Source of the DNA: Bradyrhizobium guangzhouense | GTDB taxonomy: Bacteria; Pseudomonadota; Alphaproteobacteria; Rhizobiales; Xanthobacteraceae | Length of the DNA stretch: 64,000 nt | Reading direction: 5' to 3' | Assembly (NCBI RefSeq): GCF_004114955.1 | Contig: NZ_CP030053.1 | Span: 2,294,001 to 2,358,000, forward strand | Shown: positions 1,808 through 26,102 of the stretch, piece after piece | How positions within the stretch are numbered: position 1 is the stretch's first letter | Layout of the letters: every line of letters starts with the position of its first letter | Position numbers and translations under genes: made by a program | Notes under the pieces: generated by a model | Database searches by the model: none | Told to the model about the DNA's origin: nothing | The model's input: only the letters and a program-made list of their open reading frames with translations

Positions 1808-3076
1808 ATGTCCACCAAGCCTCAATTGCCGGAACGTCCGTCGCGGGCCGCAGGAGTACCAACCGCGCTTGATGGTCTCTTGGTCATCGATTTCACGCGC
1901 GTGGTCGCCGGCCCCGCCTGCACACAGACGCTGGCCGATTTCGGTGCGCGCGTCATCAAGATCGAGAATCCCGACGGCGGCGACGACACGCGCGCCTATG
2001 AGCATGCCGAGATCGGTGGCGAAAGCGCAGCCTATCTGAGCTTGAACCGCAACAAGCGCGGTATCGCGCTTGATCTCGCGGTTCCGGAGGGGCGCGAGAT
2101 TGCACTGGATCTGATCCGCAAGGCGGATGTGGTCGTGGAGAACTTCTCCAGCGGTGTGATGAAGAAGTTCGGTCTCGATTACGAAGCCGTGGCACCGCTC
2201 AACCCGCGACTGGTCTATTGCTCCATATCCGCTTACGGGCGCACCGGGCCCTTCGCATCGCGGCCCGGCTTCGATCCGATCACGCAGGCCGAGAGCGGCT
2301 TCATGTCGCTCAACGGATTCGCAGATGGGCCGGCAGTTCGTACCGGCCCGCCGATCGTGGACATGGCGACGGGGATGTCGGCCTGCAACGCCATTCTGCT
2401 GGCGCTGTTGGCGCGGGACCGCATCGGCCGAGGTCAGCATGTCGAGGTTGCGCTGTTCGATGTCGCCATGGGGATGACGGGCTTCTACGGCATGGCCTAT
2501 TTGATCAACGGCCAGAATCCCGGCCGGTTCGGCAATTCGCCGGCCGGATCTCCCACTGTTGGTGTCTACGAGGCTTCCGACGGTCCGCTCTACATGGCCT
2601 GCGCAAATGATCGGCTGTATCGACGGCTGGTAGTCGAGGTACTGAACCGGCCGGATCTCATCAACGCACCGCAGTTCGCCACGCGCAAAGCAAGGTCCGA
2701 GAACAAGGAGCTTCTGCGTGCGGCGATCGCGGAAGTGTTCGCGAGCGACACGCTCGAGAACTGGATGGCGAAGATGAAGCTGGCCAACATTCCGGTCGGC
2801 TATCTCCGCACCGTCGAGGAAGGGTTCAATGCCCCCGAAGCGCGCGAGCGCGCGCGTTTGAGCCGGATCCCGCATCGCACCGCGCAGTGGGTGCCGAATA
2901 TCGAACCGCCGATCAGCATGAGCTTGACGGTGGCAATTGATCCTGTGGCGGCGCCTCTGCTGGGCGAGCATACCGAGGAGGTCATGCGCGAGACGCTCGG
3001 TTACGACAAGAAGCGGATTGCGGCAATGGCCCAAAAAGGCGCATTCGGGCCGCGGGGCGCCGCGACATCGGGCTGA
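1808..3076 (+). CDS. CaiB/BaiF (class III) CoA-transferase
   Basis: A 422-residue class III CoA-transferase, normal length for the family. These enzymes move CoA between carboxylic acids through an aspartyl intermediate. The N-terminal DFTRVVAGPACTQTLADFGA block and IKIENPDGGDDTR are typical, and the likely nucleophile is Asp185 in PPIVDMATG. A start at the ATG after AAGGGAGCCCTAGG is well supported. It opens the catabolic supercluster and is followed 64 bases later by a flavin monooxygenase pair, so it probably activates or recycles an acid intermediate of that pathway. The exact donor and acceptor cannot be read from sequence. Confidence 0.9.
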   Translation: MSTKPQLPERPSRAAGVPTALDGLLVIDFTRVVAGPACTQTLADFGARVIKIENPDGGDDTRAYEHAEIGGESAAYLSLNRNKRGIALDLAVPEGREIALDLIRKADVVVENFSSGVMKKFGLDYEAVAPLNPRLVYCSISAYGRTGPFASRPGFDPITQAESGFMSLNGFADGPAVRTGPPIVDMATGMSACNAILLALLARDRIGRGQHVEVALFDVAMGMTGFYGMAYLINGQNPGRFGNSPAGSPTVGVYEASDGPLYMACANDRLYRRLVVEVLNRPDLINAPQFATRKARSENKELLRAAIAEVFASDTLENWMAKMKLANIPVGYLRTVEEGFNAPEARERARLSRIPHRTAQWVPNIEPPISMSLTVAIDPVAAPLLGEHTEEVMRETLGYDKKRIAAMAQKGAFGPRGAATSG

Positions 3077-3140
3077 GCGCAGCAACAGCTTGATTTGGCA
3101 GGGTTCCAGCCTCATAAATGGATGAGAGCGAGGGACGCGA

Positions 3141-4370
3141 ATGGTGCCTGGTCAGGACCCGAGCATGGATCAGTCGATGGCGACGGGCTCCGGCGGGCGA
3201 GCCTATGCGGCGATGATTGCCAAGGCCCGATCGCTCGTGCCGCAGTTGCGGGAACGTGCGGTCCGAACCGAGGAGCTGCGGCACCTGCCGCCGGAGACGG
3301 AGCGCGACTTGCATGAAGCCGGTCTGTTCCGGATGCTGCAGCCGAAGCGTGTCGGCGGCGCCGAGCTCGATTATGTTGCCCTTATCGATTGTGCCGAGTT
3401 GCTTGGGCGGGCCGACGCATCGGTGGCCTGGAATCTGGCCAATCTGGCAAGTCACCACTGGATGCTCGGCATGTTCGAGCAGCGTACGCAGGATCTGGTT
3501 TGGGGCCGAGATCCGGATGTGCTGATCGCATCGTCGTTCATCTTCCCTGCCGGCCGTGCCAAAAAGGTCGAAGGCGGATACCAGCTGCGCGGAAGCTGGC
3601 CGTTCTCGTCGGGCGTCGGCTCGTGCGCATGGAACATGCTTGCAAGCGTCGTTTCATCCGACGACGAGGCTGACGGGATCGAATACCGCATCTTTCTATT
3701 GCCCAAGGCCGACTACAAGATCCTCGATACGTGGAACGTTGCGGGATTGCGTGGCACCGGGTCGTCGGACGTCGAAGTCAGGGATGCCTTTGTACCCGAG
3801 GATATGACGGTCGCGGTGGGTGATCTTGCGGGCGGCGCGGCGCCCGGCAGCAAGGTGAACCCCAATCCGCTGTATGCGCTGCCGGTCTTCTCGCTGTTTC
3901 CCTACGTTCTTTCCGGCGTCGCACTCGGCAATGCACAGGCGTGCCTCGATGACTACGCTGAGGTCGCGCGTCACCGAATATCAACTTACAACCGCGCAAA
4001 GTTGAGCGACTTCCAGAGCACGCAAATCAAGATTGCGGAAGCTTCCGCCAAGATTGATGCCGCCCGCCTCATCATGCGCTCGGCTTGCACCGAGGCGATG
4101 GAGGACGCACGGCGCAACCGCACGCCTGATATGGTCACCAAGACCAGATACCGTCGCGACGGGGCGTTCTCGGTCAATCTGTGCACCGATGCCGTCTCGA
4201 TGCTGTTTGCTGCGAGCGGAGCGCGCGGTCTGTTCACGACGGGCGTGCTTCAGAGGCAGTTCCGAGACGCGCACGCGATCAATTCGCACCTCGCATTCAA
4301 TTTCGATGCGGCCGGAACCAATTATGGACGCGTCGCCCTTGGCCTGCCGTCCGAGAATCTCACCCTGTGA
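3141..4370 (+). CDS. Acyl-CoA-dehydrogenase-fold flavin-dependent monooxygenase (HsaA/HpaH type)
   Basis: A 409-residue protein of the acyl-CoA dehydrogenase fold but of the group D flavin monooxygenase branch (HsaA, C2 p-hydroxyphenylacetate hydroxylase). It shows the N-terminal LPPETERDLHEAGLFRMLQP pattern, the WPFSSGVGSC stretch and the helical C-terminal domain. Such oxygenases hydroxylate phenolic or heteroaromatic rings using FADH2 or FMNH2 delivered by a separate reductase. That partner lies nine bases downstream, which strongly supports the two-component reading over an ordinary acyl-CoA dehydrogenase. GAGGGACGCGA precedes the ATG. The substrate is not known; the ring-cleavage gene at 11348 suggests an aromatic or pyridine-type ring. 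Confidence 0.8.
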   Translation: MVPGQDPSMDQSMATGSGGRAYAAMIAKARSLVPQLRERAVRTEELRHLPPETERDLHEAGLFRMLQPKRVGGAELDYVALIDCAELLGRADASVAWNLANLASHHWMLGMFEQRTQDLVWGRDPDVLIASSFIFPAGRAKKVEGGYQLRGSWPFSSGVGSCAWNMLASVVSSDDEADGIEYRIFLLPKADYKILDTWNVAGLRGTGSSDVEVRDAFVPEDMTVAVGDLAGGAAPGSKVNPNPLYALPVFSLFPYVLSGVALGNAQACLDDYAEVARHRISTYNRAKLSDFQSTQIKIAEASAKIDAARLIMRSACTEAMEDARRNRTPDMVTKTRYRRDGAFSVNLCTDAVSMLFAASGARGLFTTGVLQRQFRDAHAINSHLAFNFDAAGTNYGRVALGLPSENLTL

Positions 4371-4379
4371 GGCCGGCCG

Positions 4380-4943
4380 ATGAATGATCAGCCAAAGCAT
4401 CCGGCCGCCGCCGATCCCGCCAACGAGTTTGCAAGCGACAACTCGCCGATCGACCCGCGTGATTTCCGCAACGCGCTCGGTACCTACGGAACGGGTGTCA
4501 CGATCATCACGGCTACGGCCGCTGATGGAAAGCCGTATGGCATCACCTGCAACTCGTTTGCCTCGGTCTCCTTGAACCCTCCTTTGGTTCTCTGGAGCCT
4601 CGGCGTTTACTCATCGAGCTTGACCGTGTTTCAGAACGCCACCCATTTCACGGTGCACGTGCTGGGCAGCTCGCAGCAGGCGCTTGCAAACAAGTTCGCC
4701 AAGTCGTCGGACGACAAGTTCGCCGGCGTGGAGTGGACACCGGGCCTCGGCAACGCGCCCGTGCTGGCCGAGAGCGTGGCGAGCTTTCAGTGCCGATCCG
4801 TCAATCGCTATTATGGCGGCGATCACGTGATCTTTCTCGGTGCCGTCGAGGCCTATGCCTACAACGCAAATGAAGCGCTGCTATTTGCGCGGGGGGCGTA
4901 CGGCCGATTTCTTGCCGATGACGAGCGCAAGAAGTTGCCGTGA
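4380..4943 (+). CDS. Flavin reductase of a two-component monooxygenase
   Basis: A 187-residue flavin reductase domain protein (HpaC/HsaB-like). It supplies reduced flavin to the oxygenase encoded just upstream. Family marks are FRNALGTYGTGVTIITA near residue 25, GITCNSFASVSLNPPLVLWSL, and a late GGDHVIFLGAVEAY. Length is close to the usual 160-190. The gene starts 9 bases after the oxygenase stop with a GAGG ribosome binding site, so the two are cotranscribed. NADH versus NADPH preference and FAD versus FMN cannot be told. Downstream the next gene is on the opposite strand, so the pair plus the CoA-transferase form the first transcription unit. Confidence 0.85.
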   Translation: MNDQPKHPAAADPANEFASDNSPIDPRDFRNALGTYGTGVTIITATAADGKPYGITCNSFASVSLNPPLVLWSLGVYSSSLTVFQNATHFTVHVLGSSQQALANKFAKSSDDKFAGVEWTPGLGNAPVLAESVASFQCRSVNRYYGGDHVIFLGAVEAYAYNANEALLFARGAYGRFLADDERKKLP

Positions 4944-4949
4944 GGCGAT

Positions 4950-5858
4950 TTAGCAGTCCGGAGCCGAGAGCTTATAGATTTCCAGTGCGTCGGCTTCTGC
5001 GCCGCGTGCAGCCTTGGCCAGCCTGAAGATCTGACCTGCGAGGGTCGCCATTGGAACCGGAGTCGACGTTGCCTGCGCGACATCGGCGACCGTGTCGAGA
5101 TCCTTCAGCATCGTTGCGACGTGCCCGAGCGGGGGCGAGTGAATGCCCCGGACCATGCGCGGCACGAAGAGCTGAAGCGGGATCGAATCCGCAAAGCCGC
5201 CCGCGAGCGCCTCCGGCAACCGGCTCGCGTCAATTCCGGCGTTCGAGGCAAGGCGCGTTGCCTCCGCAAGCACGGCCATCGCGCATCCGACGATCACCTG
5301 GTTGCAGAGTTTCGTGGTTTGGCCGGCGCCGGTCGGACCCATATGGGTGAACCTGCGCGCCATGGCCAGCACATAGGGCCGGGCCCGCTCGATGTCCGAG
5401 GCCTCTCCTCCGGCCATGATGGCAAGCGTGCCTTCTTCGGCGCCCTTGGTACCACCGGACACCGGCGCGTCGATCCAGCTTGCGCCGTTCGCAGCTTTCA
5501 ATCGCTCCGCAAGCTCGCGAGCGGCGTCGGGATGGATCGACGAAAAATCGACCACGAGCTTGCCTGCACCGGGAGCCGCGGCAAGACCCGCCCTCCCGAA
5601 GATCACCTCTTCAACCGCGGCGGCATCTGTCACGCACATGAAAACGATGTCGGAGCTCGTCAACAGCTCACACGGCGTGTTCGCGCTGACGGCGCCAGCC
5701 TGGACAAGCGGCACGACCTTGCCCTCCGATCGGTTCCAGACGCTGACGTGATAGCCGGCGTTAAGCAACCGACGGGCCATTGGCGTTCCCATCAGTCCCA
5801 GGCCAAGATAGCCGAGCCTCTCGACGCCTTGCGGGTTTGCCTTGCCTGCATCAGCCAT
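4950..5858 (-). CDS. 3-hydroxyisobutyrate-dehydrogenase-family NAD(P)-dependent oxidoreductase
   Basis: A 302-residue beta-hydroxyacid dehydrogenase. The Rossmann motif GYLGLGLMGTPMARRLL starts near residue 16, and the substrate motif DAPVSGGTKGAEEGTLAIMAGG follows near residue 120. The catalytic lysine sits in a GAGQTTKLCNQ block. These enzymes oxidise 3-hydroxy acids such as 3-hydroxyisobutyrate, tartronate semialdehyde or gulonate relatives. I place the start at the ATG preceded by AGGAGGAGACAACCT; the open frame runs on upstream but lacks family residues. It converges on the flavin reductase gene with six bases between them and diverges from the solute-binding protein gene at 6037. Confidence 0.8.
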   Translation of the reverse strand: MADAGKANPQGVERLGYLGLGLMGTPMARRLLNAGYHVSVWNRSEGKVVPLVQAGAVSANTPCELLTSSDIVFMCVTDAAAVEEVIFGRAGLAAAPGAGKLVVDFSSIHPDAARELAERLKAANGASWIDAPVSGGTKGAEEGTLAIMAGGEASDIERARPYVLAMARRFTHMGPTGAGQTTKLCNQVIVGCAMAVLAEATRLASNAGIDASRLPEALAGGFADSIPLQLFVPRMVRGIHSPPLGHVATMLKDLDTVADVAQATSTPVPMATLAGQIFRLAKAARGAEADALEIYKLSAPDC

Positions 5859-5961
5859 AGGTTGTCTCCTCCTGCCGCAGCGCAACCGTGCGCGACCGCT
5901 CCCGCACCATACATAACGGATGCCGCTGCGAAACCGGACCGGCCTGCATGGCTTGCCTGAT

Positions 5962-5979
5962 TGTTTGAACCATGAAACA
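5962..5979. promoter_or_regulatory. Imperfect inverted repeat, candidate operator
   Basis: TGTTTGA-ACCA-TGAAACA is an 18-base dyad with one mismatch per arm, placed between the divergent dehydrogenase (start 5858) and solute-binding protein (start 6037) genes. The position fits an operator controlling both. Which regulator binds is unknown; no regulator gene lies in the first 18 kb of the cluster. Confidence 0.4.
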
Positions 5980-6036
5980 TTTGGGCCGGTCGGGTTGGGT
6001 GGCGTCGGTCGGCGCCGGAGCAACGGAGTGGACACG

Positions 6037-7020
6037 ATGCGGGCAGTTTCGAGGTGGATCCTGGCGGCAGGAGCCGTGGCAGCCATGATCGCAGGCGCAA
6101 GCCCGGTGTTGGCGCAGCAGACGATCCGCGTGGGATGGACCATCCCGGCGGAGGAATCAAAATACTGGATGATGCGCAGGCCGACCGAATTTCCCGATAT
6201 CGGCAAGACCTACAACATTGAGTGGACCCAATTTCAAGGCACCGCGCCGATGACGCAGGCACTCGCGGCCGGCGCGCTGGATTGCGCGACGCAGGCGCCG
6301 CTGTCGCTCGCCAACGGCGTGGTCGGCGGCAACCTCAAAGCCTACATCGTGGCCCAGCATGTCTTCGAGAAGCCGGGTGGCTTTTCAGTCTATTGGGCCG
6401 TCAAGGATGACTCGCCGATCAAGACGATTGCAGATCTCAAGGGCAAGACCGTCGGCATTTCCGTGATCGGCGGCGGCACTCAGGGCCCGTTCAACCTGCT
6501 ATTGAAGCAGAACGGCGTCGATCCCGCCAAGGACATCAAGCTGGTCGAGGTCGGCTTTGCGGTCTCCGAGGATGCGCTGCGCCAGGGCCGGGTCGATGCG
6601 GTCAACATGAACCAGCCATTTGCGGCGCGCGCAGAGGCTAAGGGCGGTATCAGGAAGCTGTTCTCGCTGTCTCAGGCCATGCCGAACATCGTGCATATCT
6701 TGGAGGCCTGCCGCGCCGATTTCGTCGACAAGAACCCAGAGCTGGTAAAGGCCTATGTCCGCGATATCACGTCCGGTATGAAGAAAGCACTCGCGAACCG
6801 CGAGGAGACCTTGAAGGTCGTGTCCGAGGTGCTGAAGGCGCCCGTTCCTGTGCTCGATACTTACCTGCTCAAAGACAACGATTTCGGTCGTGATCCGGGT
6901 GCGGCGCCGAACTTCCCTGCGATCCAGAAGATGCTGGACATCTATGCCGACACCGGGATGCTGCCGAAATTGGATGTCGCGCAGTTCAAGCACCCGACCA
7001 TCGTAGCGCCGCTGCAATAG
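6037..7020 (+). CDS. ABC transporter periplasmic solute-binding protein (NMT1/SsuA-like)
   Basis: A 327-residue binding protein with a Sec signal peptide (MRAVSRW...AAMIAGASPVLAQQ, cleavage near residue 27). The mature part belongs to the nitrate/sulfonate/taurine/pyrimidine-precursor group: QTIRVGWTIPAEES at the start, IADLKGKTVGISVIGGGTQGPF in the hinge and DAVNMNQPFAARAEAKGG later. The start ATG at 6037 follows CGGAGTGGACACG and is the one that gives the signal peptide. The matching ATPase and two permeases lie downstream at 8915-11309, separated only by the ilvD-type gene, so it delivers the pathway substrate. A strong stem-loop follows its stop codon. Confidence 0.88.
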   Translation: MRAVSRWILAAGAVAAMIAGASPVLAQQTIRVGWTIPAEESKYWMMRRPTEFPDIGKTYNIEWTQFQGTAPMTQALAAGALDCATQAPLSLANGVVGGNLKAYIVAQHVFEKPGGFSVYWAVKDDSPIKTIADLKGKTVGISVIGGGTQGPFNLLLKQNGVDPAKDIKLVEVGFAVSEDALRQGRVDAVNMNQPFAARAEAKGGIRKLFSLSQAMPNIVHILEACRADFVDKNPELVKAYVRDITSGMKKALANREETLKVVSEVLKAPVPVLDTYLLKDNDFGRDPGAAPNFPAIQKMLDIYADTGMLPKLDVAQFKHPTIVAPLQ

Positions 7021-7098: not shown

Positions 7099-8793
7099 AT
7101 GAAGAAGTTGCGGTCACGGATCACGACTGACGGGCTCGATCGGGCGCCGCACCGCGCCTTCATGCGCGCCATGGGGCTGGACGACGCGGCCATTGCCAAG
7201 CCGATGGTGGGCATTGTCAGCATGAAGGGCGAGCAGACGCCCTGCAATATGACCCACGATTTCCAGGTGGCTGCGGCCAAGACCGGAATCGAGGAAGCCG
7301 GTGGGACGCCGCGCGAATTCTCGACCGTCTCTGTGTCAGACGGCATCAGCATGAATCACGAGGGGATGAAATTCTCCTTGTTTTCGCGTGAGCTGATCGC
7401 CGACTCCATCGAGGCCGTCGTTCATGGCCTCGCCTATGATGCGCTGATCGGATACGGCGGATGCGACAAGACGCTTCCGGGCGTGATGATGGGCATGGTT
7501 CGCTGCAACGTGCCTTCCATCTTCATTTATGGCGGCAGCTCCCTGCCGGGTCACGTGGATGGGCGGACGCTGACCGTCCTCGATTCCTACGAGGCCGTCG
7601 GCAGCTTTATGACCGGCGAGATAGACGCCGGGACGCTCGAACGTATCGAGCGCGCCTGTCTGCCGACGATCGGCGCCTGCGCCGGTCAGTTCACCGCGAA
7701 CACCATGGGGATGGTGTCGGAGGCTATGGGCCTGACCATTCCCAACGTGTCGATGGTGCCCGGCGTCTATGCCGAGCGCGCACAGATCTCGCGCCGCGCC
7801 GGGCGGCTGATCGTGCAAATGCTGGAGCGTGGCGGACCGCTGCCACGCGACATCGTGACACGGAAGTCTCTGGAAAATGGCGCAGTGATCGTTGCGGCAA
7901 CGGGCGGCTCGACCAATGCTGCATTGCATCTGCCGGCGATCGCGAACGAGGCTGGCATCGCCTTCACGATCGATGATGTCGGCGAGGTCTTTGCTCGGAC
8001 GCCGCTGATTGGAAACCTGCGACCAGGCGGCAAATACACCGCAAAGGACGTCTACGACATTGGCGGCGCTGCCGTGGTGATCCGCGAGCTGATACAGAGT
8101 GGGCATATCGATGGCAGCAGCCTGACGATCACGGGCCGCACGCTTGCAGAAGAATATGGCGCGGCCAATGCGCCCGATGGCGAAGTCATTTACGCGGCCC
8201 GCGCGCCGATCATGCCCGACGGCGGTGTTGCGGTGCTGAAGGGCAATCTTTGCCCCGATGGCGCCGTTATCAAGGTTGCAGGCCTGAAGAGTCAGCTGTT
8301 CGAGGGCGAGGCGCGCGTCTTCGAGGATGAGGAAGCTTGTGTCGCCGCGGTTCGCGACCGCAGTTACAAGGTTGGCGATGTCCTGGTCATCCGCAACGAA
8401 GGGCCGGTCGGCGGTCCCGGCATGCGCGAGATGCTCGGCGTCACCGCGCTCATCTACGGCCAGGGCATGGGCGAGAAGGTTGCCTTGATCACGGATGGGC
8501 GGTTTTCCGGTGCCACACGCGGAATGTGCATCGGTTATGTCTCGCCGGAAGCGTTTGTTGGTGGCCCGCTGGCGCTCGTCCGCGACGGCGACAAGATCCG
8601 GATTGATGCCGCTGGTCGTCGCATGGATCTGCTGGTCGATGACCAAGAACTCGCGGCGCGACGGCGTGATTGGAAGCAACGCCCGCCTCGTCATCGTGCT
8701 GGTGCGCTGGCAAAATATGCGCGACTGGTCGGTCAGGCCCCGGGCGGCGCAGTCACGCACCAAGGACCCGCGGAGTGGCCATGGTTCGATTGA
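7099..8793 (+). CDS. ilvD: Dihydroxy-acid dehydratase family protein (IlvD/Edd)
   Basis: A 564-residue IlvD/Edd dehydratase of full length. The three iron-sulfur ligand cysteines are all present: Cys49 (TPCNMTHD), Cys122 (GGCDKTLPG) and Cys194 ([10 protein letters not shown]), with Lys124 beside the second. This is the set seen in genuine dihydroxy-acid dehydratases, which remove water from 2,3-dihydroxy acids. Start: the ATG at 7099 is preferred over a TTG at 7078 that lies in the preceding stem-loop. Its place between a binding protein and its ATPase suggests a pathway-specific dehydratase, possibly of a sugar acid or a hydroxylated catabolite, and not only branched-chain amino acid synthesis. 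That role is inference. Confidence 0.88.
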
Positions 8794-8914
8794 GGCGGCG
8801 TCGCGCGCGCGAAAATGCGACTGGCTTGGCAGGTTTCTTGCTAAGCTGCGGCTGATGGAGACATTCAGTAGATCGGTCGCGTGAAGTTCGCGTGTGAGTG
8901 AAGCGAGAGGCGGG

Positions 8915-18113: not shown

Positions 18114-18252
18114 CCGACGTCCTTTGGCTTGACCGCGCGATGCTAACAGGCCTGTGGGGGATGGGAAGCGATAATTTTATACTTAAAGCAATTTTCAGGC
18201 CGCTCTCCGGCGCCACGGCATGCCGTATCAGTCGGCGCTTTCGTTGCAAAAA

Positions 18253-18265
18253 TTTGAAGGTTAAA
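18253..18265. promoter_or_regulatory. MarR-type operator candidate (TTTGAAGGTTAAA)
   Basis: This AT-rich site lies between the divergent hydrolase (18113) and SDR (18307) genes. It matches the two elements in front of marR at 23155 and 23224 and the one in front of the ligase gene at 23866: a TTTGA arm, an AAG core and a nearly mirrored TAAA arm. Repetition in front of linked genes supports a shared operator, most likely for the MarR protein encoded at 23254. Confidence 0.6.
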
Positions 18266-18306
18266 ATATATCGGAGAAACGATGAGCAGATCCTAGGGAG
18301 CAAGCT

Positions 18307-19068
18307 ATGTCCGGATTGCCGCATTCGCCGCACGCGTTGGTGACCGGTGGCGGTCGCGGCATCGGCCGGGCAATTGCGGGGGCTCTTGTGGGCGCCGGCG
18401 CCACGGTGACCGTGCTTGGCAGGAATACTGCTTCTCTCGAGGAAGCGATCAACGCGGGGGCCGCGCACCATGCCGCCGTTGCCGACGTCTCGGACGAAGC
18501 TGCGCTGAGGGCCGCCGTCGTCGTAGCGCAAGCGCGAAAGCCGATCGATATCCTGATCGCGAATGCCGGCAGCGCCGAATCCGCGCCGTTCTCGAAATCG
18601 GACAGTGCCCTTTTTGCGCGCATGATGGATGTTAATTTCATGGGCGTTGTCCACGCGATCGGTGCGGTGTTGCCTGACATGAAGGATCGCCCGTATGGAC
18701 GCATCGTGGCGATTGCATCGACGGCCGGCCTCAAGGGCTATGCATATGTGAGCGCGTACACGGCGGCAAAGCACGCTGTGGTCGGCCTTGTACGCTCGCT
18801 CGCGCTGGAGATCGCTGGCAGCAACGTGACCGTGAATGCCGTGTGCCCTGGCTTCACCGACACGGATCTCGTCGCTGGAAGCATCGACAATATCATGAAG
18901 AAGACCGGACGAACCCGCGAGCAGGCAATCGCCGAGCTCGCGAAGCACAATCCGCAAGGGCGTCTGATCACGCCACAGGAAGTCGCGAATGCCGTGCTGT
19001 GGTTATGCAGCGAGAACGCCAGCGCGATCACCGGGCAGGCGATTGCGGTCGCCGGCGGCGAAATCTAG
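18307..19068 (+). CDS. SDR family NAD(P)-dependent oxidoreductase
   Basis: A 253-residue short-chain dehydrogenase. The cofactor motif TGGGRGIGRAIAGAL starts near residue 13, NAG follows at ILIANAGSAE, and the catalytic serine and Tyr-x3-Lys are in IASTAGLKG and YTAAKHA. The C-terminal SAITGQAIAVAGGEI closes the fold. Probably oxidises a 3-hydroxyacyl-CoA or alicyclic alcohol. GGGAG precedes the ATG. An enoyl-CoA hydratase gene follows after 42 bases, so the two act in neighbouring beta-oxidation-like steps. A putative MarR operator lies 42 bases upstream. Confidence 0.88.
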   Translation: MSGLPHSPHALVTGGGRGIGRAIAGALVGAGATVTVLGRNTASLEEAINAGAAHHAAVADVSDEAALRAAVVVAQARKPIDILIANAGSAESAPFSKSDSALFARMMDVNFMGVVHAIGAVLPDMKDRPYGRIVAIASTAGLKGYAYVSAYTAAKHAVVGLVRSLALEIAGSNVTVNAVCPGFTDTDLVAGSIDNIMKKTGRTREQAIAELAKHNPQGRLITPQEVANAVLWLCSENASAITGQAIAVAGGEI

Positions 19069-19110: not shown

Positions 19111-19947
19111 ATGAGCAGACCAGCCAATCCCGTCACCGTGCCACTCGCGGACTATTCGCCGCAACATTTCCTGCTGGCCGTTGTCGAGGGCGTTGCCACC
19201 GTGACGCTCAACCGCCCGGAGCGGAAGAATCCGCTGACATTCGAGAGTTATCGTGAGCTGACGGATTTCTTCCGCGCGTGCGCCTTCGACGACGCGGTCA
19301 AGTGTATCGTCGTCACCGGTGCCGGCGGCAATTTCTCGTCTGGCGGCGACGTGTTCGAGATCATCGGCCCGCTCGTCAAGATGGATACCAGGGGTCTGAC
19401 CGCCTTCACCCGAATGACCGGCGATCTGGTCAAAGCGATGCGGGCCTGCCCGCAACCGATTGTGGCCGCGGTCGAAGGCATCTGCGCCGGCGCCGGTGCA
19501 ATCATCGCCATGGCGTCGGATATGCGGCTCGCTGCGAGTGGAGCCAAGGTGGCGTTCCTGTTCAACAAGGTCGGCCTTGCAGGCTGTGACATGGGCGCCT
19601 GTGCGATCCTGCCGCGGATCATCGGGCAAGCTCGCGCCTCCGAGCTGCTCTACACCGGCCGCTTCATGACCGCGGAGGAGGGTGAACGGTGGGGCTTTTT
19701 CAGCCGCATCGTGACGCCGGAGCAGGTGCTGCCCCAGGCCCGGCTGCTGGCCACGCAGATTGCGGAAGGGCCGACGTTCGGCAACACGATGACCAAGCGC
19801 ATGCTGGCGATGGAATGGGCGATGTCGGTAGAGGAGGCGATCGAAGCGGAGGCCATTGCCCAGGCTCTGTGCATGACGACGGCCGATTTCGAACGCGCCT
19901 TTCAGGCCTTCGCCAACAAGGTCAAACCGGTCTTCAGGGGCGACTGA
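19111..19947 (+). CDS. Enoyl-CoA hydratase/isomerase family protein
   Basis: A 278-residue crotonase-fold protein. The first oxyanion segment is [11 protein letters not shown] near residue 72 and the second is [16 protein letters not shown] near residue 128; acidic residues expected of a hydratase are only partly recognisable, so isomerase or hydrolase activity is possible. The C-terminal [14 protein letters not shown] helix is typical. CAAGGAGATCGC gives a strong ribosome binding site. It lies between the SDR and an FAD monooxygenase gene and most likely hydrates a ring-derived or ring-opened enoyl-CoA. Confidence 0.88.
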
Positions 19948-20089
19948 GCGGCGGTTTCGGCCGCAAAATTAAGCCTAAGCCCAAGAGCGTGGCCGAGGGC
20001 GGGGTGGAGGCGACAAAGCCGCTTGCGGCGGGGGGACCGACCGTGCGACGTTCGCCCCGTTGCCTGTGTATCGAGTGGAGTTGAGGGCG

Positions 20090-21340
20090 ATGAAGGCGAT
20101 TATCGTCGGTGGCGGTATCGGTGGTCTCACCACGGCTTTGATGCTGCGGGCTCGCGGCATTGGATGCGAGATTTTCGAGCAATCCGATACGATCCGCGAA
20201 CTCGGCGTCGGCATCAACACGCTGCCGCACGCCATGCGAGAGCTCGCCGGCCTGGGCCTACTGCAGAAGCTAGACGACGTCGCGATCCGTACTGACCAGC
20301 TCTACTACCTCAACCGCCACGGCCAGGAAGTCTGGCGCGAGGCCCGTGGCATCGACGCCGGCCACGACGTGCCGCAATTCTCGATCCATCGCGGCCGCCT
20401 CCAGGGCGTCATCCACCGCGCCGTCGAGGAGAGGCTCGGACCCGAAGCGATCCACACCGGCTGTCGGCTCGGCGCCTTCACCCAGGACGAGGGCGGTGTT
20501 ACCGCATATTTCTTCGATCGCGCCGGTGCGCACATCCGCACCGTGCGCGGCGATATCCTGATTGGTGCCGACGGCATCCATTCGCGCGTGCGCGACACCC
20601 TGTTTCCGAACGAGGGACCGCCGTGCTGGAACGGTCTGATGCTTTGGCGCGGTGCGCGCGATTGGCCGCTGTTCCTCACCGGAAAATCGATGATCGTGGC
20701 CGGTGGCCTCAATGCCAAGGTGGTCGTCTATCCAATCGCCGAGGGATCGAGCCCGGCGAGCCGTCTCACCAACTGGGCGGTGCTAGTGAAGGTGGGCGAA
20801 GGCAATGCGCCGCCCCCGCGGAAGGAAGATTGGTCACGGCCGGGCCGGCGCGAGGAGTTGATGCCGCATGTCGCGCGCTTCTCGGTGCCTTACATCGACG
20901 TAAAGAGCCTAATTTCGGCGACGCCGGAGTTCTATGAATATCCGACTTGCGACCGTGATCCCTTGCCCTGTTGGTCGTCCGGACGCGTCACGCTGCTCGG
21001 CGATGCCGCGCATCCCATGTATCCGGTCGGCTCCAACGGCGCCTCGCAGGCGATCCTTGATGCGCGCTGCCTCGCCGACGCGCTTGTTCGTGCCGAGCAT
21101 CCACGCCAGGCGTTGATTGAGTATGAGAAGAAGCGCCTGCCGATGACGGCGGAAATCGTGCGCTCCAATCGCCGTGGCGGGCCCGAGGGTGTGATTGACG
21201 CCGTCGAGCAGCTTGCGCCCGACGGTTTTGACAATGTCGATAACGTGCTGAGCTATTCCCAGCGCGAGGCGATCGTGCGGGGTTATGCCAGCAAGGCGGG
21301 CTTCGCCGCGGTCCCGGGACTTGCGGCGGTGCGCGCCTAA
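20090..21340 (+). CDS. FAD-dependent aromatic monooxygenase (class A flavoprotein)
   Basis: A 416-residue single-component flavin hydroxylase. The dinucleotide motif GGGIGGLTTALMLRARG is at the N-terminus, the DG motif is LIGADGIHSRVR and the second FAD motif is LLGDAAHPMYPVGSNGASQAI near residue 300. This is the salicylate / 3-hydroxybenzoate hydroxylase group, which hydroxylates phenolic or aminobenzoate rings with NAD(P)H. The ATG at 20090 follows TTGAGGGCG; a frame open to 20060 adds no family residues. The neighbouring enzymes act on CoA esters, so the substrate could be an aryl-CoA. A weak match to the MarR element (19967-19979) sits upstream. Confidence 0.85.
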   Translation: MKAIIVGGGIGGLTTALMLRARGIGCEIFEQSDTIRELGVGINTLPHAMRELAGLGLLQKLDDVAIRTDQLYYLNRHGQEVWREARGIDAGHDVPQFSIHRGRLQGVIHRAVEERLGPEAIHTGCRLGAFTQDEGGVTAYFFDRAGAHIRTVRGDILIGADGIHSRVRDTLFPNEGPPCWNGLMLWRGARDWPLFLTGKSMIVAGGLNAKVVVYPIAEGSSPASRLTNWAVLVKVGEGNAPPPRKEDWSRPGRREELMPHVARFSVPYIDVKSLISATPEFYEYPTCDRDPLPCWSSGRVTLLGDAAHPMYPVGSNGASQAILDARCLADALVRAEHPRQALIEYEKKRLPMTAEIVRSNRRGGPEGVIDAVEQLAPDGFDNVDNVLSYSQREAIVRGYASKAGFAAVPGLAAVRA

Positions 21341-21349: not shown

Positions 21350-21808
21350 TTAGCCGGCGCCGGGAGGCGGCGGCAAGAAGTGGATGTTGAACTCGGCGGC
21401 CATCGCTACCACGTCCTCCGGCTTCTGTTCCTTCATGTTGTGAAGGCCCCAGAACAGGTCGAACAGCTTTTTGGTCGGCGACACCCAGAACAGTACTTTT
21501 GCGGTTTGGTCCGACTTGTTGAAGATGCCGTGTGGCACGCCCATGCCGAGCCGGATCAAGTCGCCGGGCGTTGCCTGCGCCTCTGAATTGCCGAGCACGA
21601 AGTCGAGCTTGCCCTCCAGCATGTAGAGATATTCGTCCTGATCAGGATGAATGTGTGGCGGCACGAATGTGCCCGGCGGCAATGTCGCGTGCCAGGAGAA
21701 GCTGTTCTCGCTGTTGCTCTTCGGCACATAGGTCTGGCCCAGGATGTTCCAGGAAATGCCCTGGATGCCCTCATTGGCCCGCGTGATGCCGGTGATTTCG
21801 CTCTTCAT
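21350..21808 (-). CDS. Cupin-domain protein
   Basis: A 152-residue single-domain cupin. The metal motif is read from PPHIHPDQDEYLYMLEG (two histidines and a glutamate) near residue 58, and the second motif has the histidine of GMGVPHGIFNKS near residue 95. Small cupins beside aromatic genes can be dioxygenases, isomerases or binding proteins, so I assign no reaction. It lies directly upstream of, and in the opposite direction order to, the FAD monooxygenase (tail to tail), and shares a strand with the solute-binding protein gene behind it. Confidence 0.8.
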   Translation of the reverse strand: MKSEITGITRANEGIQGISWNILGQTYVPKSNSENSFSWHATLPPGTFVPPHIHPDQDEYLYMLEGKLDFVLGNSEAQATPGDLIRLGMGVPHGIFNKSDQTAKVLFWVSPTKKLFDLFWGLHNMKEQKPEDVVAMAAEFNIHFLPPPPGAG

Positions 21809-21838: not shown

Positions 21839-23014
21839 TTAGTTTGCCGCCTTGCAATCCTTGGCGTAACGGTCGCCGTAGTTCTCAAAGACCTTCTGGA
21901 CGATCTCGGTCTGGAACTTGCCGTCCGGACGCTTGGCAACCTTGGTCAGGTAAAAGTCCTGGATCGGATAGCCGTTGGTGTTGAATTTGAACGAACCGCG
22001 CAACGACGTGAAGTCCGCCTTCTTCAAGGCAGTCCCGACGGCATCCTTGTTGGAGAGGTCGCCCTTCACTCCCTTGACCGCGCTGTCGATCAGCATCGCT
22101 GCGTCATATCCCTGCATGGCATAGGTACCCGGCACGCTGTTATAGGCGGCCTCGTAGGCCGCGACGAACTTCTTGTTCTGGGGATTGTCGAGATTGGGCG
22201 CCCAGTTCGCGCCGCCAAACATGCCAACAGCCGCGTCCTGCTGCGCGGGCAGTGTCGATTCATCGACGGTGAAAGCTGAAAGCACCGGAACGCTGTCAGC
22301 AAGGCCGGCCTGCTTGTACTGCTTGACCAGATTGACGCCGAGGCCACCTGGCATGAACGTGAAGAGAGCATCGGGCTTCTGCGCCGAGATCTTGGAAAGC
22401 TCGGGCTGGAAGTCCAGCGTGTTGAGCGGCATGTAGGATTCTTCGACAATCTCGCCCTTGTAGGCGAGCTTGAAGCCGGCGACCGAGTCCTTACCGGCCT
22501 GATAATTCGGCACCATCAGATACATGCGCTTGTAGCCGCGATCCTGCGCGACCTTGCCCAGGACCTCGTGGACCTGGTCGTTCTGATAGGACGTCACATA
22601 GAAGAACGGGTTGCAGTCCTTGCCAGCGAATGTCGACGGACCCGCATTCGGGCTGATCAGGAAGGTCTTGGATTCCGTGACCGGACGGTGGATCGCCTGA
22701 AGGATGTTGGAGAAGATCGGTCCGACCACGAAGTCGACCTTGTCACGCTCCAGCAGGCCCTTGACCTTGGTCACAGCCGCATCCGGCTTGAGCTCATCGT
22801 CCACCACGATCACTTCGACATCACGGCCCCCCATCTTGCTGCCGAGATCCTTCACCGCGAGGGCAAAGCCGTCACGAACCTGCTGACCGAGCGCGGCAGC
22901 CGGTCCGGAGAGGGTCACGATCACGCCCAGCTTGATCTTCTCTTGTGCGAGGGCAGGGCTCATCGCGGTGCCGAGGACAAGTGCGGCTGCGGCCAAGGTC
23001 AGTTGCGTCTTCAT
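21839..23014 (-). CDS. Branched-chain amino acid / aromatic acid type ABC solute-binding protein
   Basis: A 391-residue LivK-type periplasmic binding protein. A signal peptide (MKTQLTLAAAALVLGTAMSPALAQE) is followed by KIKLGVIVTLSGPAAALGQQ, the usual first strand, and by the DVEVIVVDDELKPDAAVTKVKGLLERDKVD segment. In alphaproteobacteria such proteins often bind benzoate- or coumarate-like acids. The ATG at 23014 is chosen because it yields the signal peptide. Permease and ATPase genes are absent here, so the partner importer must be elsewhere. The gene is divergent from marR, with two operator-like sites between. Confidence 0.88.
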   Translation of the reverse strand: MKTQLTLAAAALVLGTAMSPALAQEKIKLGVIVTLSGPAAALGQQVRDGFALAVKDLGSKMGGRDVEVIVVDDELKPDAAVTKVKGLLERDKVDFVVGPIFSNILQAIHRPVTESKTFLISPNAGPSTFAGKDCNPFFYVTSYQNDQVHEVLGKVAQDRGYKRMYLMVPNYQAGKDSVAGFKLAYKGEIVEESYMPLNTLDFQPELSKISAQKPDALFTFMPGGLGVNLVKQYKQAGLADSVPVLSAFTVDESTLPAQQDAAVGMFGGANWAPNLDNPQNKKFVAAYEAAYNSVPGTYAMQGYDAAMLIDSAVKGVKGDLSNKDAVGTALKKADFTSLRGSFKFNTNGYPIQDFYLTKVAKRPDGKFQTEIVQKVFENYGDRYAKDCKAAN

Positions 23015-23154
23015 GATCAATCCCCCGATTGCGCCTGCACTGCAAGCTGCGTACTCCGTGCCAAGCTTATGCCGATGATGGCGTTCGCGGCAAGCCAAGC
23101 TCAAGGTCGCCGTCGTCGTGCGGGGAGCGGCGCATGCAAGCGGCGCGCCAATTA

Positions 23155-23167
23155 TTTGAAGCCTAAA
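23155..23167. promoter_or_regulatory. MarR-type operator candidate (TTTGAAGCCTAAA)
   Basis: First of two elements in the region between the solute-binding protein gene (start 23014) and marR (start 23254). It is the same 13-base pattern as at 18253 and 23866. Confidence 0.65.
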
Positions 23168-23223
23168 GAAATCCGCGCTCGGTCGATTGTTGTAGCTTTG
23201 GGCTTGCGGCCGGCGTCGATTTA

Positions 23224-23236
23224 TTTGAAGCTCAAA
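23224..23236. promoter_or_regulatory. MarR-type operator candidate (TTTGAAGCTCAAA)
   Basis: The most symmetric copy: TTTGA and TCAAA are perfect inverted arms around AGC. It lies 18 bases before the marR GTG, so binding would block transcription or translation start of marR itself, which suggests autoregulation. Confidence 0.7.
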
Positions 23237-23253
23237 ACGTTGGGGAATCCTGG

Positions 23254-23781
23254 GTGGCGCAAATGCCGACCGTGAGTGATTGCATCGAAATGCTCGATTC
23301 CGAGACCAAGGCCGTCGAAACGCCGGAGGATCATGCCGAAGAGCTCCGGCTGTGGTTGCGTCTGCTCACCTGCACGACCCTGATCGAAGGCGAGGTTCGC
23401 GGCCGGCTGCGGCAGCGCTTCGACGTCACGCTGCCGCGTTTCGATCTGATGGCGCAGCTCGATAAGGCGCCCGACGGCATGACGCTGTCTGACGTCTCCA
23501 AGCGCATGATGGTGTCCAACGGCAACGTCACCGGTCTCGTCGAACGCCTCGTGGAATCCGGCCATCTCGACCGGCGCACCTCGGAGACCGACCGCCGCGT
23601 TCAGGTCATCCGCCTGACGAAGCTCGGTCGTGCCGAGTTTCGCAGGATGGCTGCAGAACATGAGACCTGGATCGCCGATCTCTTTGCCGACCTGACGCCC
23701 AAGGATGTGCGGGAGCTGATGCGGCTGCTGGCCAAGACCAAGGCGTCGGCGCAGAAATCTGCCGCGCGTCGCAAGCCCTGA
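23254..23781 (+). CDS. MarR family transcriptional regulator
   Basis: A 175-residue winged-helix regulator. The DNA-binding part reads MTLSDVSKRMMVSNGNVTGLVERLVESGHLDRR followed by the wing ETDRRVQVIRLTKLGRAEF, and outer helices supply dimerisation. MarR proteins near aryl-CoA ligase genes commonly act as repressors released by a CoA thioester or free acid. GTG at 23254 has GGGGA upstream; an ATG at 23263 is nearly as good. It is flanked by repeated TTTGAAGCCTAAA-like elements and probably controls the divergent solute-binding protein gene, itself, the ligase gene at 23930 and the SDR operon at 18307. Confidence 0.9.
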   Translation: MAQMPTVSDCIEMLDSETKAVETPEDHAEELRLWLRLLTCTTLIEGEVRGRLRQRFDVTLPRFDLMAQLDKAPDGMTLSDVSKRMMVSNGNVTGLVERLVESGHLDRRTSETDRRVQVIRLTKLGRAEFRRMAAEHETWIADLFADLTPKDVRELMRLLAKTKASAQKSAARRKP

Positions 23782-23865
23782 ATCCAAGGGCCGAGGCGCC
23801 TCCAATCCCCACCTTGCCGTAGGAAAATGCATGGGATCCCCAAAATCCGCTATTGCGCAAAATTG

Positions 23866-23878
23866 TTTTAAGCCTAAA
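23866..23878. promoter_or_regulatory. MarR-type operator candidate (TTTTAAGCCTAAA)
   Basis: Sits between the marR stop and the ligase gene, 51 bases before its ATG. It shares AAGCCTAAA with the copy at 23155 and differs at one base of the left arm. Confidence 0.6.
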
Positions 23879-23929
23879 ATGTTTTCTGTGAGTGCTGCCG
23901 GGTGCTTTCCATGCGCAAAGGAGCGTGCG

Positions 23930-25621
23930 ATGGCCAACGCTGCCAAGGTTCATGTCTCGGGCTTGCCTGGCGGCGACGCCGCAAGCGCCCATGTCGATAC
24001 ATTCGCGCGGCAGCATCTGCCGCCGCCTGACCTTTGGCCGGAATTCATCTACACGCGACCGGAGCTGCGCTATCCGGCGCGATTGAATTGCGTAAGCTAT
24101 TTCCTCGATCGCTGGGTCGAGCAGGGGCACGGCGATGCGCCCTGCGTCATCAGTCCCGCCGTCAGCTACACTTATCGCGAATTGCAGGAGCTGGTGAACC
24201 GCATCGCCAATGTGCTGGTCGGCAAGCTCGGACTCGTCACTGGTGGCCGCGTGCTGCTGCGCTCCGCCAACAGCCCGATGATGGTCGCGGCCTATCTCGC
24301 GGTGATCAAGGCCGGCGGCATCTGCGTGGCGACGATGCCATTGTTGCGCGCCAAGGAGCTATCCTATCCGATCCAGAAGGCGGAGATCACGCTCGCGCTC
24401 TGCGACGGGAAGCTCTCCGACGAGATGGAGAAGGCAAAGCTGGCCGCGCCCGGACTCAAACAGGTGGTCTATTGGGGCAACGGTGCTTCCGACTCGCTCG
24501 AGGCGCTGATCGCGGATGCGGGCCCTGAGTTTACGGCGGTTGATACCGCCTCTGACGATATCTGCCTGATTGCATTCACGTCGGGTACAACAGGCGATCC
24601 CAAGGGCACCATGCATTTCCATCGCGACATGCTGGCAGTGTGTGACGGCTATGCACGGAACATCTTGCGGGCCGGGCAGAAGGACCGCTTCGTCGGCTCG
24701 GCGCCGCTTGCATTCACCTTCGGTTTCGGAGGCGTACTGTTCCCGATGCATATCGGTGCTTCGTTTGTCGTACTGGAGAAGACGACGCCCGATGACATCC
24801 TCTCGGCGATCGAACAGTACAAGACGACAATCTGCTTTACGGCGCCGACAGCTTACCGCGCTATGATCGGCAAGCTTCCGGGTCGCAACATTTCTTCGCT
24901 TCGAAAGTGTGTCTCCGCCGGAGAGACGCTTCCCAAGCCGACATTCGATGCATGGCTGAAGGCCACTGGTATCAAGCTGATGGACGGCATCGGTTCGACC
25001 GAGCTGCTACACATCTTCATCAGCGCGACTGAGGACGAAATCCGCCCCGGTGCGACCGGCAAGCCTGTTCCCGGCTATGAGGCGAAGATCGTCGATGATG
25101 ACGGCAACGATTTGCCGCCGGGTACGATGGGGAAGCTCGCTGTGCGCGGGCCGACCGGCTGCCGTTATCTCGCCGACGAGCGGCAGCGCAAATACGTCCA
25201 GAACGGCTGGAACATCACCGGCGACACCTATCTGATGGATGGCGACGGCTACTTCTGGTACCAATCGCGCTCCGACGACATGATCGTGTCAGCCGGTTAC
25301 AATATCGCTGGTACGGATGTGGAAGCTGCGTTGCTCACGCATCCTGCTGTCGCCGAGTGCGGTGTCGTCGGTGCGCCGGACGAGGCGCGCGGGATGATCG
25401 TGAAGGCCTATGTCGTAGCGGCATCCGGTGTGACGCCGGATACAAAGCTCGCGTCCGAGTTGCAGGAGCATGTCAAACGCGAGATCGCGCCGTACAAGTA
25501 CCCGCGCGCGATCGAGTTCGTGACACAGCTGCCGAAGACCGAGACCGGCAAACTGAAGCGCTTCGCCTTGCGACAACTGGCGCAGGCGGCCGAGACATCC
25601 TCAGGAGTCGCGGCAGAATGA
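23930..25621 (+). CDS. Benzoate/2-aminobenzoate-CoA ligase type AMP-dependent synthetase
   Basis: A 563-residue adenylate-forming ligase of the aryl-CoA ligase branch. It has the N-terminal WPEFIYTRPELRYPARLNC block seen in 2-aminobenzoate-CoA ligase relatives, A3 FTSGTTGDPKGTMHFH, A5 MDGIGSTELLHIF, the hinge region SDDMIVSAGYNIAG and terminal LPKTETGKLKRF. It would convert an aromatic acid to its CoA ester. AAAGGAGCGTGCG supports the ATG at 23930. Linkage to marR, an FAD monooxygenase and a RidA gene fits a pathway for benzoate-like or aminobenzoate-like acids; which acid is inference. Confidence 0.85.
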   Translation: MANAAKVHVSGLPGGDAASAHVDTFARQHLPPPDLWPEFIYTRPELRYPARLNCVSYFLDRWVEQGHGDAPCVISPAVSYTYRELQELVNRIANVLVGKLGLVTGGRVLLRSANSPMMVAAYLAVIKAGGICVATMPLLRAKELSYPIQKAEITLALCDGKLSDEMEKAKLAAPGLKQVVYWGNGASDSLEALIADAGPEFTAVDTASDDICLIAFTSGTTGDPKGTMHFHRDMLAVCDGYARNILRAGQKDRFVGSAPLAFTFGFGGVLFPMHIGASFVVLEKTTPDDILSAIEQYKTTICFTAPTAYRAMIGKLPGRNISSLRKCVSAGETLPKPTFDAWLKATGIKLMDGIGSTELLHIFISATEDEIRPGATGKPVPGYEAKIVDDDGNDLPPGTMGKLAVRGPTGCRYLADERQRKYVQNGWNITGDTYLMDGDGYFWYQSRSDDMIVSAGYNIAGTDVEAALLTHPAVAECGVVGAPDEARGMIVKAYVVAASGVTPDTKLASELQEHVKREIAPYKYPRAIEFVTQLPKTETGKLKRFALRQLAQAAETSSGVAAE

Positions 25622-25643
25622 GACGAGGAATCAGGAATTGTCC

Positions 25644-26102
25644 GTGACAACGCCGAAAGGCCCGCAGCTCGCGGTACTGCCGAGCGCCGCCGAAGATGCC
25701 GCGAGCCCGAGGGCTCAGGTGCTCCAGCCTTCCGGCTGGCCGATGCCGAAGGGCTATGCCAACGGCATGGCGGCCGAGGGACGCATCGTCGTCACGGGTG
25801 GTGTGATCGGCTGGGACGCGCAGGAGCGGCTCGTCGACGGCTTCGTCGCGCAGGTGCGCCAGACCCTGAGCAACATCGCCGAGATCCTGGCCGAGGCCGG
25901 CGCGCGGCCCGAGCATCTGGTGCGTTTGACCTGGTACGTGGTCGACATGGAGGAATACCTGACAAGCCTGAAGGAACTCGGCAAGATCTATCGCGCCGCA
26001 TTCGGTACGCACTATCCCGCGATGGCGCTGGTCCAAGTCGTGCGTCTGGTCGAGAAGGCGGCGCGCGTCGAGATCGAGGCCACCGCGGTCATTCCTCGCT
26101 GA
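25644..26102 (+). CDS. RidA family (YjgF/YER057c/UK114) protein
   Basis: A 152-residue RidA-superfamily protein, slightly long because of an extended N-terminus. The core reads VTGGVIGWD, QTLSNIAEILAEAGA, and a closing RLVEKAARVEIEATAVI; the arginine that marks deaminating RidA members is not seen at the end, so this may be a non-deaminating subfamily. RidA enzymes hydrolyse reactive enamines or imines. GTG at 25644 is used (AGGA seven bases upstream); TTG at 25638 is possible. It follows the ligase gene by 22 bases and may protect against nitrogen-containing intermediates of the pathway. Confidence 0.82.
   Translation: MTTPKGPQLAVLPSAAEDAASPRAQVLQPSGWPMPKGYANGMAAEGRIVVTGGVIGWDAQERLVDGFVAQVRQTLSNIAEILAEAGARPEHLVRLTWYVVDMEEYLTSLKELGKIYRAAFGTHYPAMALVQVVRLVEKAARVEIEATAVIPR

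Follow-up and report, generated by a model that had tools for sequence, protein, structure and literature searches.

Known pathways and the Bradyrhizobium cluster

The aerobic 2-aminobenzoyl-CoA route of anthranilate degradation, known from Azoarcus evansii, starts with a CoA ligase, followed by 2-aminobenzoyl-CoA monooxygenase/reductase (ABMR) and beta-oxidation-like steps, as outlined in the available part of a review (PMC4539516) that draws on Schuhle 2001. Here we analyse a 24-kb catabolic gene cluster at positions 1808-26102 of a 64,000-nucleotide stretch, hereafter the window, of the 8.14-Mb genome of Bradyrhizobium guangzhouense (NZ_CP030053.1; G000:C1:2294001-2358000). Like the Azoarcus pathway as given there, the cluster has an anthranilate-CoA-ligase-like enzyme and beta-oxidation-type enzymes, with a putative ABMR in trans. 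It differs in that the in-cluster ABMR appears to be lost and in that the set is joined to a NicX-type module. A flavin monooxygenase (FMO), a cupin, a RidA protein and a MarR regulator also belong to the set here, four genes that the comparison with Azoarcus does not cover.

NicX of Pseudomonas putida KT2440 cuts dihydroxypyridine between C5 and C6, and its Glu177 binds N1 and O1 of 2,5-dihydroxypyridine, according to the available part of PMC7910607. The NicX-like protein of the window is a sequence relative in which the iron ligands named there (H265, S302, H318, D320) are kept in the alignment, together with H105, H189 and R293. In contrast to the P. putida enzyme, it has valine at the position of E177, its operon holds a CoA ligase and a flavoprotein of the acyl-CoA dehydrogenase (ACAD) fold, and anthranilate genes lie near.

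In the iif and ind clusters of Acinetobacter and Cupriavidus, two-component flavin oxygenases begin the breakdown of indole to anthranilate, and in Cupriavidus this product is taken on by a 2-aminobenzoyl-CoA cluster (PMC6221969, part of the source). A putative two-component flavin oxygenase with reductase and a short-chain dehydrogenase (SDR) recur in our cluster, a likeness by description and not by IifC sequence, whereas no NicX-like dioxygenase or CoA ligase is named for the upper part of iif/ind in the portion of that paper available. The iad indole-3-acetate locus of Variovorax and Bradyrhizobium is likewise under MarR control, and the anthranilate in which it ends could supply the right half of the cluster described here; unlike this cluster, it relies on the Rieske oxygenase IadCDE (available parts of PMC9613470 and PMC12633357). 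A Pfam scan of 22 of the 23 cluster proteins found no Rieske domain, the 23rd protein being the SDR, which rules out the iad and iac auxin loci as the identity of the cluster. Among the matches listed for the open-licence literature, no title or abstract links anthranilate to both a NicX-like gene and this flavoprotein.

Two adjoining modules

Pfam and NCBIfam profiles and sequence matches to the PDB recovered 22 genes of the families listed in the initial annotation, which had been made from the sequence alone, plus one MarR gene absent from that list (Table 1). All gene types of that list are present, the NicX-like one by way of PDB 7cn3. Among its 'dehydrogenases', the family fold of the flavoprotein at 16001-17290 stands, while the usual catalytic Glu is absent. 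The proposal that the genes form one undescribed pathway is not supported: the stretch is two adjoining modules that meet at 18113/18307, of which the right one is a described anthranilate route that occurs alone in two other loci (L220, L221), and the core of the left one occurs alone elsewhere. What is new is an unusual exchange of paralogs in a lower pathway of known type, next to an uncharacterised ring-cleavage module.

A search with the NicX-like protein, at one genome per species, gave 388 relatives, of which the best 80 were fetched as loci; the closest are nearly all from Bradyrhizobium. Genes in the fetched genomes were called with a codon-usage caller made for this analysis. Each gene from the class III CoA-transferase (CoAT3) through the enoyl-CoA hydratase (ECH) was found in 77-80 of the 80 loci at at least 60% identity, in a single order and orientation. 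Such constancy of gene order far exceeds chance and bears out the co-occurrence across Bradyrhizobium that had been proposed as a check. Three loci miss genes at contig ends (L030, L053, L070), L087 lacks CoAT3, HsaA and the flavin reductase despite a complete flank, and L084 lacks ECH. FMO, cupin and the solute-binding protein SBP2 fall within the 10-kb flank in just 18-19 of the 80 loci, because most loci place ABMR first. The distribution within the genus is not universal, as the flavoprotein occurs in 7 of 10 Bradyrhizobium genomes, our own included.

The right module, a probable anthranilate route

Gene families and synteny assign the right half (18307-26102) to the aerobic 2-aminobenzoyl-CoA pathway of anthranilate degradation described before. 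The ligase of this half has anthranilate-CoA ligase 4wv3 as best PDB match (346 bits), followed by a benzoate-CoA ligase (277 bits), and on sequence grounds it is an anthranilate-CoA ligase by predicted activity. Two genomes of the same genus (G543 and G611, loci L220 and L221) carry SDR, ECH, ABMR, FMO, cupin, SBP2, MarR and ligase (55-58%) without the left block, and neither has the left flavoprotein at E 1e-60; RidA is also present in the L221 set. Among 18 fetched ABMR neighbourhoods, RidA, ligase, acyl-CoA dehydrogenase, ECH and SDR, often with MarR, recur in four (L223, L230, L235, L237), and the set is partial in four others (L224, L226, L229, L236). No permease genes adjoin SBP2 in the window. 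In a further genome (G613, L210), SBP2 is followed by two open reading frames of membrane-protein size, permeases by eye, and two ABC ATPase-like ones.

The initial annotation had suggested a nitrogen-containing substrate. This is upheld for the right half, where the expected substrate is a nitrogen-containing aromatic acid, whereas the case for a pyridine based on NicX is weakened by the absence of Glu177 in 41 of 41 close relatives (see below). In the right module, SBP2 would take up anthranilate or a related acid, which the ligase at 23930-25621 would convert to 2-aminobenzoyl-CoA. SDR and hydratase would act in the beta-oxidation-like breakdown of the dearomatised product, and RidA may hydrolyse an enamine.

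Probable loss of ABMR and the paralog elsewhere

An ABMR orthologue lies downstream of SDR/ECH in 61 of the 79 classifiable loci (L053 could not be classified). Family membership is clear in L009, where the protein exceeds the PRK08255 cut-off (1137.6 vs 1078 bits); in L068 just the first 285 residues are visible before the flank ends. The window has no intact ABMR, and its ECH and FMO genes are separated by a gap of 142 bp. Within this gap, a short stretch matches ABMR residues 761-779 at 12 of 19 positions (blastx against five proteins, E 1e-4). The same gap in 17 of 17 other loci with FMO only also best matches the ABMR C-terminus, clearly above shuffled sequences in 13 of the 17, by 1-4 in L013, L036 and L085, and below them in L083. 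The stretch at 19965-20021 is probably a C-terminal stub left by deletion of ABMR, a claim we base on the agreement of position, strand and set of loci and not on the score in the window. In L028 (18718-19045), ABMR is cut to residues 23-109 and 752-779 by a large internal deletion, which may represent an intermediate stage of the loss in the window.

Elsewhere in the same genome, one full-length ABMR paralog was found (G000:C1:4583433), 51% identical and well assigned to PRK08255 (1339.6 bits, cut-off 1078). With RidA, acyl-CoA dehydrogenase, MarR and a PRK06155-type ligase nearby, its locus (L145, G000:C1:4575000-4594999) is a second anthranilate-type locus of this genome. All 18 other genomes without an intact in-cluster ABMR have one paralog of this ~51% type and no second copy; one of the 19 paralog-type genomes, G941, gave a partial match of 538 residues. 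Genome searches covered 49 (48 plus L084) of the 61 loci that carry ABMR in the cluster, and each of the 48, as well as L084, yielded one match, which was 49-52% identical to the paralog or was itself of the in-cluster type. Hence, of 68 cluster-bearing genomes, 49 have in-cluster ABMR only, 19 (our own included) have the paralog only, and none has both or neither. These counts hold at E 1e-120 to 1e-140, at which weaker second copies may escape. The one-or-other pattern is strict (Fisher 3e-17, a value that is not a probability since the genomes are related), and it suggests that cluster-bearing genomes need exactly one such enzyme. The ABMR step is probably supplied in trans by the ~51% paralog after loss of the in-cluster copy. 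FMO as an added replacement of ABMR was ruled out, as both coexist in L084, L174, L220 and L221.

The left module and its core

The left half (1808-18113) is a Bradyrhizobium-type build-up around a module of alpha- and betaproteobacteria. Outside the genus, the recurring unit consists of the NicX-like protein, an alpha/beta-hydrolase, the ACAD-fold flavoprotein and a CoA ligase. The hydrolase beside the NicX-like gene is presumably comparable to NicD. Several of these units face a flavin reductase and a MarR gene, and in other families the core was found without the right module nearby. Among 35 non-window loci with a flavoprotein at least 45% identical, 33 had the NicX-like gene, 31 a hydrolase match and 26 a CoA-ligase match (23 at at least 40%), while a flavin-reductase match was found in 14 (10 at at least 41%) and MarR in 11. 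These loci were picked through NicX (15), through the flavoprotein (18), or as plasmids matched by both (2); NicX presence in L125-L144, which were picked by NicX, is given by construction, and 16 of the 18 loci found through the flavoprotein had the NicX-like gene. Proteins of this module are often labelled 'peptidase M29' and 'acyl-CoA dehydrogenase' in databases.

The catalytic Glu at the YEGT position is absent in 35 of 35 aligned members of the flavoprotein family, that of the window included, and kept in 3 of 5 reference rows. An ordinary acyl-CoA dehydrogenase role was rejected on this ground. Isovaleryl-CoA dehydrogenase carries its catalytic base at another position; there the protein of the window presumably has Met. 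Its AlphaFold model (pLDDT 79.6) has the ACAD fold, which a structure search confirmed without settling the role. The protein is probably a flavin monooxygenase, and the flavin reductase of the window adjoins HsaA, 11 kb away from it.

No Pfam or NCBIfam model matched the protein at 11348-12394, which is called NicX-like because of its match to solved NicX, 7cn3. The AlphaFold model reached a pLDDT of 46.9 (alignment of 85-91% identical sequences), so that the likeness to NicX is one of sequence only. In all 41 rows of at least 48.8% identity, E177 is replaced by V, G, T or N, and in three of them H189 is Y. Without Glu177, 2,5-dihydroxypyridine is a doubtful substrate, and the protein was not classified as NicX proper.

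Variants of the module occur elsewhere. In L170, L171, L180, L181 and L182, a glutamine-synthetase-family gene replaces the CoA ligase, with an APC permease in four of the five; the variant lies on Ensifer and Aminobacter plasmids and in three genomes. This variant suggests an amine-type substrate. L196 has a double 4Fe-4S ferredoxin-domain protein in the operon (6429-7460), between flavin reductase and NicX-like gene. A member of the flavoprotein family lies on a Dolichospermum plasmid (L172, from a cyanobacterial metagenome-assembled genome), away from its module partners.

A search of 240 genomes located the octopine/nopaline-dehydrogenase-type gene (OpDH) in 8 besides our own; six of these have a NicX-like gene at at least 49% identity, one a weak match and one a fragmentary match. 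It adjoins a gene of the 3HCDH family in 6 of 8 distant OpDH loci. These pairs (L212, L214-L217, L219) belong to distant alphaproteobacteria and lie apart from the NicX module, and in L214 a CoA ligase 46% like that of the left core (CoAlig1) and, by eye, hydantoinase-like genes stand beside them.

Regulation

With up to 3 mismatches allowed, the palindrome TTTTARGCYTAAAA occurs in the window at 18175, 18253, 23155, 23224 and 23866 only, compared to a mean of 0.82 and a maximum of 4 matches in 100 shuffles. At 23866, upstream of the ligase, TTTTAAGCCTAAAA matches without mismatch. Another scan for MarR-type palindromes gave one match outside the cluster, at 43479, with one mismatch. All 79 loci scanned have a looser form in the hydrolase/SDR interval, and 59 of 60 have it in the interval from ECH to ABMR; the rest of the sequence to the left, 1.30 Mb, holds 3 sites. 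In G613, one palindrome lies 173 bp upstream of a left-type ABC ATPase gene (L174:19482). One MarR repressor, through putative binding to these sites, probably controls both modules. In the part of the literature available, CouR is a precedent for a MarR protein that answers to an aromatic CoA ester.

A different sequence, TGTTTGAACCATGAAACA, lies between the HIBADH and SBP1 genes and is unique in the window when up to 3 mismatches are allowed. Unlike the MarR-type site, it is probably the operator of a second regulator.

Link between the modules and rival readings

Co-occurrence was assessed in 37 module-positive and 43 module-negative genomes, chosen by hand. The positives are 37 of the 41 positives outside the genus (G127, G287, G524 and G704 were left out), including five with a NicX-like gene and no flavoprotein in the fetched stretch (G001, G044, G122, G194, G286); the negatives are genomes of at least about 3.3 Mb from listed non-hits or weak NicX hits, three of them from the same genus, all three with ABMR. 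ABMR was found in 32 of 37 positives (G290 by a partial match) and 15 of 43 negatives (Fisher p 3e-6). In nine of the 32 (G087, G613, G702, G831, G752, G713, G867, G872, G557), no more than 20 kb separate it from the module, against an expectation of about 0.3 if 40 kb per 4.5 Mb is assumed; four of the nine belong to one family. Genes of tryptophan breakdown also occur close by: kynB, kynU and kynA, all above cut-off, border the module in L177, and in L126 a TRAP transporter comes after it, along with a protein related to animal-type tryptophan 2,3-dioxygenases (308 bits to 4hka, below the bacterial NCBIfam cut-off). Kynureninase is weakly enriched (24/37 vs 17/43, p 0.027). The shared palindromes and the co-occurrence in genomes make the two halves appear linked.

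On balance, we lean towards two adjacent catabolic modules under one MarR regulator, with ABMR acting in trans and the left module feeding or sharing the anthranilate pool. The left ABC importer would take up an acid, whose ring could be opened by a two-component flavin monooxygenase (16001-17290 plus the flavin reductase), a NicX-kind Fe(II) dioxygenase, the alpha/beta-hydrolase and the CoA ligase. Its own substrate being a matter of prediction, this module most likely feeds or shares the anthranilate/2-aminobenzoyl-CoA pool. One specific version, tentative and rather unlikely, is a novel route in which the ACAD-fold oxygenase introduces a hydroxyl group at a carbon beside N-CH in an N-heteroaromatic ring of the indole or quinolone type, the NicX-type enzyme cleaves N-CH=C(OH), the hydrolase removes the N-formyl group, and anthranilate passes to the right module; by analogy, NicX-like cleavage logic applied to the indoxyl ring would yield N-formylanthranilate. 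Three observations weigh against our preferred interpretation. The ABMR companion set was not seen in L222, L225, L227, L228 and L231-L234 among the 18 neighbourhoods, the score of the stub in the window (54) equals the best of 200 base shuffles (54), and E177 is variable in 11 more distant rows, with E in two and Q, S or A in the others. The first and last of these led us to grade it slightly lower.

Alternatively, the left module could be a second route for anthranilate or for 5-hydroxyanthraniloyl-CoA, in which hydroxylation is followed by cleavage of an aminophenol ring in the manner of NicX, and then by hydrolysis and activation of the fragment with CoA. Its association with ABMR and, at one locus, with kyn genes, as well as the loss of the pyridine-binding Glu, would fit, and 5-hydroxyanthraniloyl-CoA is reported as an ABMR product when NADH is limiting (PMC3534580, part of the source). 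Yet 5 of the 37 genomes have the module without ABMR, and a transporter and a separate CoA ligase of its own would be left unexplained; this reading is possible but unlikely. Somewhat less probable still are two unrelated neighbours in Bradyrhizobium, with the left one degrading a plant phenolic or other nitrogen-free aromatic acid. The modules are indeed separate in other genomes, and an HsaA-like oxygenase, IlvD and a feruloyl-CoA-synthetase-like ligase suit a phenolic acid; against this stand the genome-wide co-occurrence, the repeated closeness to ABMR in other families and the palindrome that precedes the left-type ABC operon of G613. The least probable is a single pathway that degrades a pyridine acid of the nicotinate, picolinate or hydroxypyridine type, with NicX-like dihydroxypyridine cleavage. 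A NicX relative with every iron ligand speaks for it, as do genes of the xanthine dehydrogenase family close to the module in L128, L149, L178 and L179, an AS-family amidase beside NicX in L134 with a BLAST relative near ABC genes in L211, amidase-like proteins (by eye) beside OpDH in L215 and L218, and the variability of E177 across NicX-like proteins generally. However, E177 is lost in all of the close rows, the right half is an anthranilate module, and neither a maleamate amidohydrolase nor a maleate isomerase is among the family names of the cluster (a genome-wide search was not made).

Features of the cluster

Our own caller gave later likely starts for SBP1 (6037), the ligase (23930), FMO (20090) and RidA (25743). 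Directly beside the cluster, at 26129-35220, lie CBS/BON, PHA-synthase-like, CHAD, AAA-kinase and CoA-ligase/GNAT genes.

Table 1. Genes and putative regulatory sites of the cluster (positions in the window).
Feature	Position	Strand	Evidence
Class III CoA-transferase (CoAT3), left module	1808..3076	+	PF02515 411.6 bits; 77/80 loci
HsaA/p-hydroxyphenylacetate-hydroxylase-type oxygenase, left	3141..4370	+	HsaA model 335.6 bits, below cut-off 450; PDB 2rfq
Flavin reductase, left	4380..4943	+	41-48% to reductases in 10 NicX-module loci elsewhere
3-Hydroxyisobutyrate-dehydrogenase-type reductase (HIBADH), left	4950..5858	-	PF03446, PF14833; tartronate semialdehyde reductase model 223 bits, below cut-off
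Second putative operator TGTTTGAACCATGAAACA, between HIBADH and SBP1	5962..5979	.	Conserved in 15 aligned sequences
NMT1/SsuA-type solute-binding protein SBP1, left	6037..7020	+	PF09084
IlvD-type dehydratase, left	7099..8793	+	NF002068 786 bits, over cut-off
ABC ATPase (8894-9763) and permeases (9760-10545, 10541-11309), left	8894..11309	+	
NicX-like Fe(II) ring-cleavage dioxygenase, altered pocket, left core	11348..12394	+	PDB 7cn3 E 2e-48
HAD3, 3-hydroxyacyl-CoA dehydrogenase family PRK08269	12391..13383	-	534.7 bits, cut-off 427
OpDH, octopine/nopaline-dehydrogenase type	13387..14475	-	PF02317
Acyl/aryl-CoA ligase (CoAlig1), left core	14472..15998	-	Best PDB feruloyl-CoA synthetase/fatty-acyl-CoA synthase 8wev/8weu
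ACAD-fold flavoprotein, no usual catalytic Glu, left core	16001..17290	-	
Alpha/beta-fold hydrolase (abHyd), left core	17298..18113	-	PF00561
Divergent abHyd/SDR promoter, two MarR-type palindromes (18175, 18253)	18175..18266	.	
SDR dehydrogenase, right module	18307..19068	+	With ABMR in L127, L223, L230, L235-L237
Enoyl-CoA hydratase (ECH) PRK08258, right	19111..19947	+	464 bits, cut-off 330
Probable ABMR C-terminal stub, residues 761-779	19965..20021	+	blastx vs five proteins E 1e-4
PRK07538-type flavin monooxygenase (FMO), right	20090..21340	+	578 bits, cut-off 400; PDB relatives 2rgj/3c96
Small cupin, right	21350..21808	-	PF07883
HAAT-type binding protein SBP2, right	21839..23014	-	PF13458
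Two MarR-type palindromes between SBP2 and MarR (23155, 23224)	23155..23237	.	
MarR-family regulator, right	23254..23781	+	PF12802, PF01047
MarR-type palindrome TTTTAAGCCTAAAA, no mismatch, upstream of ligase	23866..23879	.	
Anthranilate-CoA-ligase-like enzyme, right	23930..25621	+	Benzoate-CoA-ligase family, over cut-off; PDB 4wv3
RidA-family enamine/imine deaminase, right	25743..26102	+	PF01042; near ABMR in L145, L194, L197, L199

Significance

The NicX-type module, spread over alpha- and betaproteobacteria, stands out as a good candidate for a type of ring cleavage to which no substrate has been assigned. Both tryptophan and bacterial auxin degradation yield anthranilate, and a cluster found throughout much of Bradyrhizobium therefore bears on plant-microbe signalling.

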